From Leucobacter sp. cx-42 (GTDB taxonomy: Bacteria; Actinomycetota; Actinomycetes; Actinomycetales; Microbacteriaceae): a stretch of 64,000 bases of DNA. The notes beneath the pieces were generated by a model. The model was not told where the DNA came from, did not search any database, and saw only the letters and a list, made by a program, of their open reading frames with translations. Shown piece after piece: positions 2,064 to 7,652 of this stretch. The stretch spans positions 124,001 through 188,000 of the forward strand of contig NZ_JACVMU010000007.1 in the NCBI RefSeq assembly GCF_014529985.1, in the 5' to 3' direction. The position numbers and the translations under genes were made by a program. Within the stretch, counting starts at the first letter, position 1, and each line of letters begins with the position of its first letter.

Positions 2064-4031
2064 ATGAAATACGTGGATCACGCAAAGATTCGCCGAACTC
2101 TCGGCGTCACGGCTGTGGTTGCCTCACTCACAGCTACCAGCCTGGCATTCGGCGCAGCCTCAGCGCTTGCGAACGATGACGCCACGGTTGCCCCGGCAGT
2201 CGTTGACACCGGCAAGAAGGGCACCGTCGTCATGATTGGCGGCGCAATCAGCCCAAGCGATGAGAGTGGCCATAGCGCCGCAATCATGGATGAGATTGTG
2301 CGGCTCGCGCAGGAGCACGCTGACCCAGGCAATAGGCCGCTCATCGCAGTGTCAACCGCGGCCTCAACTCCCGCAGCAAACGCCATCGAAGCGGCAGACG
2401 AAGAAGAAGATAACGCCACCATCAACGGCATGGCTTACTACAAGCAGTGGTTCGAAAGTCATGGCGCTGATGTCTACCCGATCCCGGTTGATGTCAACAC
2501 CGGTCTCGATTACGAAGGCGACCCGTATAGCGCCGACAATGCGCGTGACCAAGCAGTTGCAGACGAAATCGCCAAGGCTGACGGCGTCTTCTTCGGCGGT
2601 GGCGACCAGACCAACTACATTCGCGCATTTATGGATTGCGAAGGCCCCGACGCTGAAGCTGAAGCGATTCACGCCTACACGAGCTGCACCGATACCGTCG
2701 CGATGACTGCGATCCGCTCCGTGGTCGACAGCGGTGGCGTCACCGGCGGCACGAGCGCCGGCCTTGCGATCCAGCAAGGCAAGGACATGATTTCTGGCGG
2801 TTCCCTCTACCAGTCGTGGTCAGAAGGCCCTCGCCCGGGCTGGTTCACCGGAGATGATCCCGTGATCGGTGATCCGCTCACCTATGTCCCTTCGGGTGGC
2901 TTCGGCTTCTTCGATGAGGGCACCATGGACTCCCACTTCGCACGTCGCGACCGCCAGCCCCGTGTGATCCGCCTCGCGATTGACCGTGGTCACGAGCTGG
3001 CATTCGGTGTCGAAGAAAAGACCGCGCTCATCGTCGATCGCGCGACCCGTCAGGGACGCGTCATCGGCGATCTCGGCGCGACCATGCTCGATGTGAGCAA
3101 TGCGGCATCGGACGGCCAGAACGTCACCGGCGTGCGCTACTCCTACTTCAAGGACGGCTCAACCATCGACTTCGCCACCCGCGAGATCACCCTGCCTGGC
3201 GAAATCAAGACCGGCCCCGGCACCGAAACCATTCCTGCCGATTGGGCACAGGAAGATATCTGGGGCTCGGCAGACTGCAACGACGGCATCTTCGGCACCA
3301 CGGACGTCATTGAGACTCTGCTCCCCTCAACCGAGTCCACCCTGTCCGGCACCACCTGCGACGCAGGCGATGGCAAGCCTCGCTTTGTCACCACCTTCAA
3401 TCGCACCGCGAATACCCAGTGGACCGACGCTGGCAGCTTCACCGGTCTCGAAATGACCATCGCACACCAGGCCTCGTTCGAGGTCGCTGCAGTGTCCAAT
3501 CTGGATAAGGTCATCGCTGGCGAGGCGACCGATCTCCAGTTCACTGTCACGAACACTGGCGGCACGGGCTTCATCAACGTCGCGGCCAACGGCGCAGCGA
3601 CGACCTCCGCAGCTTCGGCTCGGGCCGCCGCACCGGTACTGCTCCCCGGCGAGTCGGTCACTGTCACCGCCCCCATCAGCGCGAAGCTTGGCGCTCAGGA
3701 ATACGCACCGAACGTGACCGCTACCCCGAGCACGCTCGACGGCGTTCCCCTCGGTATCGACGCGACCACCGCGTCCAGTGAGGTCTTCACCGTCACTGGC
3801 GTCGCAGCGACCCCCACCACGCCCGAGAAGCCCGGCACCAAGCCTGGTACTGATGCAGGCACCGGCGGCGTCGCGACTGGCGGATCAGACACCACGGCCA
3901 AGGACGGTGCACTCGCAAACACCGGCGCTGATGCAACCGCTGGAATGGCCTTCGGCCTCGCGGGTCTCGCACTCGTCGTCGCTGGCGCAGCTGCGACCCT
4001 CTTCGGCCGCCGCGCTCGCGCACAGCGATAA
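2064..4031 (+). CDS. Secreted, LAxTG-anchored cyanophycinase-like peptidase (S51 family)
   Basis: A 655-residue predicted surface protein. Residues 1 to about 36 look like a Sec signal peptide ending near ASALA. The next ~300 residues match the S51/cyanophycinase pattern: FFGGGDQTN, the nucleophile motif GGTSAG (Ser231), a DSHFARRDRQPR segment like the family's D-x-H-F-x-x-R region, and GVEEKTALIV. A Thr/Ala-rich extracellular C-terminal half follows, then LANTG (617-621), a hydrophobic helix and a basic tail (RRARAQR). LAxTG is the motif of class E sortases in high-GC Gram-positives. Cyanophycinases release beta-Asp-Arg dipeptides from cyanophycin; wall-anchored action on that polymer is inferred. 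Another beta-aspartyl peptide substrate is possible. Confidence 0.82.
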   Translation: MKYVDHAKIRRTLGVTAVVASLTATSLAFGAASALANDDATVAPAVVDTGKKGTVVMIGGAISPSDESGHSAAIMDEIVRLAQEHADPGNRPLIAVSTAASTPAANAIEAADEEEDNATINGMAYYKQWFESHGADVYPIPVDVNTGLDYEGDPYSADNARDQAVADEIAKADGVFFGGGDQTNYIRAFMDCEGPDAEAEAIHAYTSCTDTVAMTAIRSVVDSGGVTGGTSAGLAIQQGKDMISGGSLYQSWSEGPRPGWFTGDDPVIGDPLTYVPSGGFGFFDEGTMDSHFARRDRQPRVIRLAIDRGHELAFGVEEKTALIVDRATRQGRVIGDLGATMLDVSNAASDGQNVTGVRYSYFKDGSTIDFATREITLPGEIKTGPGTETIPADWAQEDIWGSADCNDGIFGTTDVIETLLPSTESTLSGTTCDAGDGKPRFVTTFNRTANTQWTDAGSFTGLEMTIAHQASFEVAAVSNLDKVIAGEATDLQFTVTNTGGTGFINVAANGAATTSAASARAAAPVLLPGESVTVTAPISAKLGAQEYAPNVTATPSTLDGVPLGIDATTASSEVFTVTGVAATPTTPEKPGTKPGTDAGTGGVATGGSDTTAKDGALANTGADATAGMAFGLAGLALVVAGAAATLFGRRARAQR

Positions 4032-4046
4032 CGCCTCCTGAAAAGA

Positions 4047-4084
4047 CTTGTGGCCCCGCTCATTCAATTGAGCGGGGCCACAAG
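4047..4084. terminator. Bidirectional intrinsic terminator
   Basis: A 14-bp perfect stem (CTTGTGGCCCCGCT and its complement) with a 10-base loop lies between the convergent cyanophycinase gene and the 4101-4442 gene. It is flanked by an A-run on the left and a T-rich stretch on the right, so it can serve both strands. Confidence 0.85.
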
Positions 4085-4100
4085 GCATTTGTTTGACGGA

Positions 4101-4442
4101 TCAGCCAGCCAGCGGCGGCATGTCCCACACGGCGTCATACTGCACCGAGAGCTCTGGCCAGATCTCGCGCAGGGCGTCATCTAGTGACTGCACGGTCTCC
4201 GCTGGGTCGCCAAACACAATGATCTCGTGCGGAATCACGCGGCCAGAACGATCCGTGCGGCCCCGCGGGTCCATGAGTCGGAACATAAAGCCGGTGTTGT
4301 CGTTCGTACGGGCGAAGAAGTCGCCAGACGCGGGTGCGCCACGAAACGCTTGCTCGAAGGCAGGGAGCGGATCCGCACAGCCATCTGCGCGGAGAAACTT
4401 AAAGCCCCAGGTCTTGCCACGGGTGGCCCAGATGATCTTCAT
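4101..4442 (-). CDS. Conserved-looking protein of unknown function, partner of the GTPase-like gene
   Basis: 113 residues, not recognised. It begins MKIIWATRGKTWGFKFL and ends WDMPPLAG, and is rich in aromatic residues and charged turns. There is no signal peptide, membrane helix or cysteine pair, so a small soluble cytoplasmic domain is likely. Its ATG overlaps the stop of the upstream GTPase-like gene by 4 bases, so the two are co-transcribed and probably translationally coupled. That suggests a partner or regulator of the GTPase, but no activity can be assigned. Confidence 0.8.
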   Translation of the reverse strand: MKIIWATRGKTWGFKFLRADGCADPLPAFEQAFRGAPASGDFFARTNDNTGFMFRLMDPRGRTDRSGRVIPHEIIVFGDPAETVQSLDDALREIWPELSVQYDAVWDMPPLAG

Positions 4443-5593
4443 CGGTTTCTCCTGAGCAGTATGTGTGCGCGCTCCGCCTGTTCGAGCGCGAGTTTAAAGC
4501 CCGTGAGAATCATGGCTAAGTGATCATTCTTTGCGCGCGCCTTTTCGTTGAGTTTCTGCAGCGCGTCTCCGCCGAGCTGCGCAGCCTGATTGATCTCATT
4601 CGCGCCAACAAATTTGAATACAAGGCCGAGACGGCCGCGAAGGAACGGCGTGACAAACCCGAGCAAGCCGCCGGCGAGTGTGCCGACATTGCGCAACGCC
4701 TTCTCCGCAATCTGCACAGGAAGCTGCTTAGCAGCTGCCCACTTTGCATGACGTTCGAACGGCATAATTACTGAAAGTGGCAGTATTAGATCCACACCGA
4801 CGCGCTTTTCAACGTCAATAGTGCCGGGAGTGAATTGGGCCGCTGAAATAAGCATGAAGTCATCTCCGATGGAGAGCGCTTCCGCCCCATCGATCATCCC
4901 GCTAATCACACCTTTGAGGTCTTCGAGCTCAGCGCCCGCTTTCTCGATAATGAGGTCGCGGAACCAATAGACATCGTGCTCTGGCATGAGGTCGGCTTTG
5001 GAGAGCGCTACCGGCCAGATACGTGGGAACACCGCGAGCTTCTCGCCGTTTAGACACAAGTTCTCCTGCATGGCAAGCAGCGTGTTCCGGAAGTTTGCGA
5101 AGAGGCTCTTGAGGTAACGTTCTTCCTCACCAACGTTATCCAAGAGCCGCTGAGCGTCAACCAGAAGAAAGGCGACGTCAGCTCCGAGGAGCGAACGGAA
5201 GGTCTCTACTCGACGTTCAGCCTCAGCTGGACCACCTGGTTCCTGTTCGAACCACTCGCCTGGATAATCGTGCCAGGTCAAGCGTGCGGCTGAGAATGGC
5301 TGCTTCTTCGAACCGTTACCGACGTTCCAGTTGTGCGGCTGGATCGAGAACGAATGCCGCGATACGTCGAATCGCGTCGCAGCAGGCGGCACAGCAGAGT
5401 TCTTCATACCGAGGTAGTTCTGGTGCAGTCGTAGGCCAGCACCCAGGTCGTCAGCGATAACGCGGAATCCGTTTTCCTTCGGATACTGGGCTTCCTGTGT
5501 AAAACCATAGAAGGAAGAAACAAGTACTGATTTACCGCTGCCGCTTTCACCAAACACGGCGATCTCTTGCTCGAGCTTCTTTAGTTCTTTCAT
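4439..5593 (-). CDS. P-loop GTPase-like protein of unknown function
   Basis: 384 residues. GESGSGKS at 15-22 is a P-loop. DYPGE at 109-113 resembles a switch II / Walker B D-x-x-G motif, FLLVDAQ follows, and SKAD at 198-201 fits a degenerate [NT]KxD base-recognition motif. Together these suggest a TRAFAC-like GTPase rather than an ATPase. Residues about 303-330 are hydrophobic and could touch the membrane, and the C-terminus is a charged helix. The start has TAGGCT six bases upstream, which fits a leaderless mRNA. AAA, AAT and TTT codons appear more often than in neighbouring genes. YcjX-type or other orphan TRAFAC families are possible relatives. Confidence 0.8.
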   Translation of the reverse strand: MKELKKLEQEIAVFGESGSGKSVLVSSFYGFTQEAQYPKENGFRVIADDLGAGLRLHQNYLGMKNSAVPPAATRFDVSRHSFSIQPHNWNVGNGSKKQPFSAARLTWHDYPGEWFEQEPGGPAEAERRVETFRSLLGADVAFLLVDAQRLLDNVGEEERYLKSLFANFRNTLLAMQENLCLNGEKLAVFPRIWPVALSKADLMPEHDVYWFRDLIIEKAGAELEDLKGVISGMIDGAEALSIGDDFMLISAAQFTPGTIDVEKRVGVDLILPLSVIMPFERHAKWAAAKQLPVQIAEKALRNVGTLAGGLLGFVTPFLRGRLGLVFKFVGANEINQAAQLGGDALQKLNEKARAKNDHLAMILTGFKLALEQAERAHILLRRNR

Positions 5594-5758
5594 AGCTTCA
5601 GCCTAGTCAAATACTCATGTGGGCATAGCTCCACTCGCAGGCTCCACGCACCCCTTTGTCCTTCAAGCGATTCTCGGGGTCGTCGAAACTGGCGCAGCCG
5701 CTGCCTTCTTCTTCTGCCGTAACGCTCAAGTTCAGGGATAAGCGACAGTACGTGCCAG

Positions 5759-5796
5759 GGGGCTGGGTTCTACATTTCGGTGTGAAACCCAGCCCC
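5759..5796 (-). terminator. Intrinsic terminator after the rhodanese gene
   Basis: An 11-bp perfect stem (GGGGCTGGGTT and its complement) with a 16-base loop lies 20 bases beyond the stop of the rhodanese gene. The rest of 5594-5816 shows no convincing gene. Confidence 0.7.
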
Positions 5797-5816
5797 TGAC
5801 GCGTGTACGCACTTCC

Positions 5817-6224
5817 CTATTCGGCGATCACCGGGATTCCCGTAAGGACGGCGGCTGCGTCGAGACCGCCAAGATCTGTCACCTGCTTAATGCCTGCGGC
5901 TTGCAGGAGCTTGACGGCCTGGCTTGAGCGGCTCCCCGAGCGGCAGTACACGTAATACTCCTGCTCCGGATCGAGTGCTGCCGCTTGCGCGGCTACTTCG
6001 CCTGCGTTGAAATCAAGTACCGTTGCGCCGGTGAGGTGTCCGCTCGCAAACTCCTGCGGGGTACGCACATCGAGAATGACTGCGTCAGCTGGCACCTCGA
6101 TGGTATGTGTGCTGGCTTGTGGTTCCGCACCATCGCCTGCGGCTGGAGCGCACCCGGTAAGCCCAACAGCAAGCGCAACGGCTGCGAGTGGGAAGGTGAG
6201 TGCGGTGAGCATCTTACGAAGCAT
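5817..6224 (-). CDS. Rhodanese-domain lipoprotein
   Basis: 135 residues from the ATG at 6224, chosen because AAAGGA lies about 7 bases upstream and the protein then begins with a lipoprotein signal peptide (lipobox LTGC, lipidated Cys25). A longer reading frame to 6356 would bury that signal. The rest is one rhodanese domain with catalytic loop CRSGSRSS (Cys94). It would carry sulfane sulfur as a persulfide outside the membrane, tethered by lipid. The gene overlaps the DUF4395 gene by 11 bases and shares its CsoR/CstR-type operator, so a role in persulfide handling is a reasonable inference. Confidence 0.9.
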   Translation of the reverse strand: MLRKMLTALTFPLAAVALAVGLTGCAPAAGDGAEPQASTHTIEVPADAVILDVRTPQEFASGHLTGATVLDFNAGEVAAQAAALDPEQEYYVYCRSGSRSSQAVKLLQAAGIKQVTDLGGLDAAAVLTGIPVIAE

Positions 6225-7576: not shown

Positions 7577-7652
7577 TGGTGGATCTAAGGGGATTCGAAC
7601 CCCTGACCCCCTGCATGCCATGCAGGTGCGCTACCAACTGCGCCATAGACCC
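7577..7652 (-). tRNA. tRNA-Ala (anticodon GGC), CCA encoded
   Basis: The minus strand folds as a full cloverleaf: 7-bp acceptor stem starting GGGTCTA, a D-arm with GCGC pairs, anticodon stem CCTGC/GCAGG around loop ATGGCAT, and a T-arm with TTCGAAT. Discriminator A and the CCA end are encoded. Loop positions 34-36 read GGC, so it decodes GCC alanine codons. It lies 36 bases after rsfS and is followed at once by a terminator, so it is probably the last unit of the upstream transcript. Confidence 0.97.

Follow-up and report, generated by a model that had tools for sequence, protein, structure and literature searches.

What do two overlapping genes of Leucobacter sp. cx-42, one with the motifs of a GTPase and the other encoding a protein of 113 amino acids, do together, and how did they come to lie between a cyanophycinase and a rhodanese gene, with no defence genes beside them? 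An earlier note on the window, that is, the whole stretch of 64,000 nucleotides that was analysed, had proposed that they form a two-gene system. We verified both open reading frames with their coordinates, their strand and the four bases that they share (Table 1). The motifs that mark the larger protein as a GTPase are likewise in place, with GESGSGKS (G1) at residues 15-22, DYPGE (G3) within HDYPGEW at residues 108-114, and SKAD (G4) at residues 198-201. The shared terminator reported earlier is a hairpin with a 16-pair stem (z = -6.95), which separates the pair from the convergent cyanophycinase-like gene and can serve both strands. No sigma-70-like promoter was found in positions 3900-6000, which is a weak test in an actinobacterial host.

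Table 1. Features of the gene pair and its surroundings, in positions of the window unless residues are given
Feature	Position	Strand	Remarks
GTPase gene, near DO-GTPase2/YcjX, 384 aa	4439-5593	minus	ATG start; G1, G3 and G4 motifs
Partner gene P2, 113 aa	4101-4442	minus	ATG start; no Pfam family; phrog_38171 match
ATGA stop/start overlap	4439-4442	minus	couples the GTPase and partner genes
Bidirectional intrinsic terminator	4047-4084	both	separates the pair from the convergent cyanophycinase gene
Insertion, as compared with the sister species' syntenic site	4032-5741		82-nt intergenic region in the sister
GTPase C-terminal segment	residues 303-330 of the GTPase		Gly/Ala-rich, hydrophobic

The two genes form a nearly obligate operon. 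Scanning one genome per species yielded 156 relatives of the GTPase, and among the best 80 of the 156, which were kept, every record is titled actinobacterial. The partner is encoded at 88 of 91 loci, and the overlap is exactly four bases at 82 of the 86 loci where both genes could be measured. Among 398 genomes of the family to which the window belongs, a sample with less bias, every full-length copy of the partner (26 of 26) adjoins a GTPase; the GTPases found there without a partner comprise three diverged copies from one small-genome genus, one fragment and one weak match. The concern that the 113-residue gene might not be conserved beside GTPase homologues falls away because the partner adjoins the GTPase nearly obligately. 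Distances among the GTPases and among the partners co-vary (r = 0.70, Mantel p = 0.0005), as would be expected for genes that are inherited or travel together. When neighbouring open reading frames were clustered in search of a third conserved gene, no widely recurring one was found; the remaining clusters cover at most 10 loci each, and those inspected consist of near relatives or generic island genes. Diverged solitary GTPases, with the partner absent, were seen at loci L010, L011 and L237, all in one small-genome genus.

This operon is a mobile accessory module that has been gained and lost. About 7% of the sampled genomes or species of the family (398 genomes) carry the pair, the partner occurs in 2 of 396 genomes of a phylum sample, and Curtobacterium plasmids carry copies of the pair. 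The GTPase tree scatters the Microbacteriaceae, which alone require 17 changes; supported branches force at least 8 of these. A sister genome (G624), which aligns to the window at 89% in the left flank and 85% in the right, lacks the pair at the syntenic site, where only the short gap given in Table 1 separates the cyanophycinase and rhodanese genes. Being patchy and missing from that site, the pair is therefore an accessory insertion. Its rarity in the genus favours a gain here over a deletion in the sister, although the two are not strictly separable. Just past the GTPase start, at the right end of the insertion (about 5631-5741), lies a stretch that resembles a decayed second copy of the cyanophycinase 3' end (alignment score 66; shuffled sequences reach at most 41), a remnant of the event that produced the insertion. 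The earlier note had suspected acquisition from codons that are less GC-rich; the sister's empty site shows it better, and codon composition supports a foreign origin for the GTPase gene only (GC3 0.62, window median 0.735), but not for the 113-residue gene (GC3 0.737). The sister genome also has about 4.2 kb of extra sequence of its own (L153, 12278-16490) relative to positions of about 7577-7582 of the window.

Neither protein had at first been assigned to a family that could be named. This holds for the partner, but not for the GTPase, which matches Pfam DO-GTPase2 (PF19993) weakly, at 22.7 bits against a curated cut-off of 27; the same profile is matched by all 70 homologues examined at E ≤ 1 (best E = 1.6e-10). 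Residues G15, S19, G20, K21, D109, P111, G112, E113, W114, K199 and D201 are invariant across these homologues, and the assignment as a GTPase stands. They include D109, G112 and E113, in agreement with the description of DO-GTPase2 as a TRAFAC GTPase whose Walker B/DxxG region holds a conserved Glu. E113 places a Glu at the position of Gln61, the catalytic Gln of Ras. The YcjX profile (PF04317, DUF463) weakly matches 51 of the 70 homologues and does not match the GTPase of the window. The closest fold to the predicted model (pLDDT 85) is YcjX (VIA), with Z 16.0 and rmsd 4.6 over 252 aligned residues at 18% identity; other G proteins reach Z 11-13. Based on the weak Pfam match and the best structural match, the GTPase probably belongs near DO-GTPase2 and YcjX. 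NCBIfam matches of the two proteins were rejected as P-loop noise and assign no family, PDB sequence searches with single sequences and profiles returned P-loop noise or nothing, and neither protein matches a PADLOC model at E ≤ 10.

The hydrophobic stretch near the C terminus of the GTPase exists as claimed, but it lies below the usual transmembrane threshold, with a best 19-residue Kyte-Doolittle mean of 1.19. Across the GTPase family the median of this value is 1.49, and 27 of 85 members exceed 1.6. The stretch is poorly modelled and gives no clear transmembrane helix.

The partner is a small protein with a confident model (pLDDT 92). The partner matches no Pfam family and has no match among PDB sequences. 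Its elements follow the order beta-beta-alpha-beta-beta-beta-alpha-alpha, which is the order of the longin domain. In the structure comparison most of the top places go to longin and roadblock domains of proteins that regulate GTPases (a Lokiarchaeal longin, CPLANE, Mon1-Ccz1, FLCN and TRAPP), with PAS, PHY and LuxR-type domains ranking just below as further candidate folds. These longin/roadblock matches are weak (Z ≤ 6.5, thus under 8; Foldseek E ≥ 0.03), a level too low to exclude a merely common arrangement, and we treat the longin likeness as a lead and not as family membership. The Roadblock profile Robl_LC7 (PF03259) is matched by 0 of the 74 partner proteins at E ≤ 1; Roadblock proteins are present in some relatives' genomes. 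The core motif of the partner is DPxGRxDxxGRxIPH.

A homologue of the partner is carried by a few phages. The phage profile phrog_38171 matches residues 5-107 of the partner (E 2.7e-16), and a fold search among viral models gave one strong match, A0A221J6F3 (TM 0.88, 35% identity), a 203-residue protein of Arthrobacter phage Nightmare. By tblastn, the partner finds gp8 of Nightmare (E 9e-14) and gp8 of Tokki (E 8e-16) and, more weakly, gp016 of Rhodococcus phage ReqiPepy6. The phage proteins share the domain of the 113-residue protein but differ in placing it after an N-terminal tag of 25 residues (DUF7211) and a hydrophobic segment. Seven residues of one loop, D58, R62, D64, G67, R68, P71 and H72, are invariant in bacterial and phage forms alike. 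The phage gene sits among head genes, between terminase and portal, and other genes in this interval share the tag; 119 phage records match part of gp8, nearly always the tag only. These tagged genes look like interchangeable cargo genes. Phage Gordon, related to Nightmare, has the same gene order minus the partner-domain gene, and the cluster is predicted to be lytic (PMC5679793). We saw no gene for a GTPase near the partner-domain gene in the phages. IMG/VR scans with the GTPase and partner alignments gave no relatives, and a scan with the phage gene matched one contig. At L182 (5301-8261) and L184 (6159-11909), a terminase-portal series consists of genes that each start with the ..HYGVKGMKWG tag (DUF7211). 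A record labelled 'Bacteriophage sp.' (MT835574, L095) was rejected as phage evidence, having NAD-synthesis neighbours and a stretch that resembles Brachybacterium locus L075; MT835574.1 looks like a Brachybacterium-like chromosomal contig.

In bacterial genomes, the surroundings of the pair give an indication of a link to defence. At 73 loci, the closest two genes to either side of the pair (280 genes, called with a simple in-house gene caller) matched 168 + 234 PADLOC models at E ≤ 1e-10, a redundant count of models and not of systems, as one protein can match many. In 20 arbitrary regions (146 genes), which come for the most part from a single family and so have a narrower origin than the test loci, 32 models were matched at the same threshold. 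The neighbourhoods of the pair thus appear rich in defence models relative to these controls. Neighbours checked individually include the type I restriction-modification proteins HsdM at L019 and L049 and HsdR at L064, NERD-helicases at L035 and L075, a UvrD-like helicase at L032, a Z1/MzaC-like protein at L070 and PDC-S02 at L082; two more neighbouring proteins, suspected by eye of a role in defence, had no PADLOC match. On a Curtobacterium plasmid, the pair adjoins a type ISP restriction enzyme, followed by CBASS-like genes (SAVED, CD-NTase and ThiF), and a TniQ gene set is also present; on a second plasmid a remnant of the partner lies beside a type ISP enzyme. Ordinary neighbours are found at many other loci, including the window.

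Because the pair often lies beside defence genes, and because copies of the partner occur in a few phages, it is probably an uncharacterised anti-phage system. We infer that it is a defence module in which the partner controls a GTPase switch, and hold this to be about as probable as its opposite. The 113-residue protein would bind the GTPase and control its nucleotide state, with the loop DPxGRxDxxGRxIPH as the likely contact. Since the GTPase has a Glu (E113) in place of the catalytic Gln of Ras, the partner may be needed for GTP hydrolysis. Infection would flip the switch and lead to an action that is perhaps located at the membrane, as the hydrophobic C-terminal stretch suggests. A phage version of the regulator such as that of Nightmare, with its tag and hydrophobic segment, might hold the switch off; the position of its gene and the shared N-terminal DUF7211 tag suggest that it could be delivered together with the DNA. 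The full picture, in which an undescribed GTPase of the YcjX/DO-GTPase2 type and a longin-like regulator act against phages and a regulator mimic, probably in the virion, disarms them, is a tentative one and less likely than not. In literature searches we found no description of the pair, in line with the earlier suggestion of an undescribed system, nor of the DUF7211 tag. If correct, the full picture would mean that bacterial immunity includes a minimal system built on a GTPase switch, that GAP1 is not the sole partner of the YcjX/DO-GTPase superfamily, and that longin-like regulators are tied to bacterial GTPases outside the MglAB line as well. It would also single out Nightmare gp8 as a phage gene whose role is open to direct comparison with the close relative Gordon, which lacks it, and, should the mimic exist, it would point to a GTPase/regulator arms race in bacteria.

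Among the nearest described relatives of such a module are the DO-GTPase/GAP1 conflict systems of Kaur et al. 2020 (PMC7159879). The pair resembles them in the GTPase superfamily, the Glu after DxxG, the accessory distribution and a dedicated downstream partner gene. By contrast, the 113-residue partner comes from another family, and no variable effector genes were seen in the operon. Judged by domain content, the pair is not a DO-GTPase/GAP1 system in the sense of Kaur et al., because a search of the whole genome found no GAP1-M domain.

An alternative is that the pair is an accessory switch for envelope stress or membrane maintenance, comparable to YcjX of the phage-shock regulon, which merely shares mobile islands with defence genes. 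YcjX (DUF463, PDB 6nz4-6nz6) provides the best structural match, membrane stress has been connected with DO-GTPase/YcjX proteins (PMC11237479), and the hydrophobic C-terminal segment of the GTPase would fit such a role. YcjX itself belongs to the psp stress regulon, however, whereas the GTPase described here is shorter, has a 113-residue partner and is mobile in actinobacteria. Very patchy presence and the mobility of two genes are unlike stress housekeeping, no widely recurring third gene accompanies the pair, and the domain of the partner is found in phages; we consider this alternative unlikely. It is also conceivable that the 113-residue protein is the active component, with R62, D64, R68 and H72 as its active site, that the GTPase controls it, and that in phages this domain serves as a cargo effector directed against the host. 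The positions conserved between bacterial and phage copies are indeed polar residues of a loop, and the phage domain occurs within the series of tagged genes from terminase to portal. Yet the partner has no sequence similarity to any enzyme, and the folds that it weakly resembles are chiefly binding platforms, which makes this proposal quite improbable. A G-protein pair for signalling or polarity with no role in phage infection, like MglA/MglB and the conservon GTPase/roadblock pairs, would share the combination of a GTPase with a small partner, which is here modelled in a related, roadblock/longin-like arrangement, but is very unlikely in view of a GTPase of another family and size, a partner with no Roadblock match in Pfam, the mobility of the ATGA-coupled genes and the lack of a widely recurring signalling gene nearby.

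A minor observation concerns genes for ADP-ribosylglycohydrolase-like proteins, which, as read by eye, recur near the pair at L016, L020 and L067.
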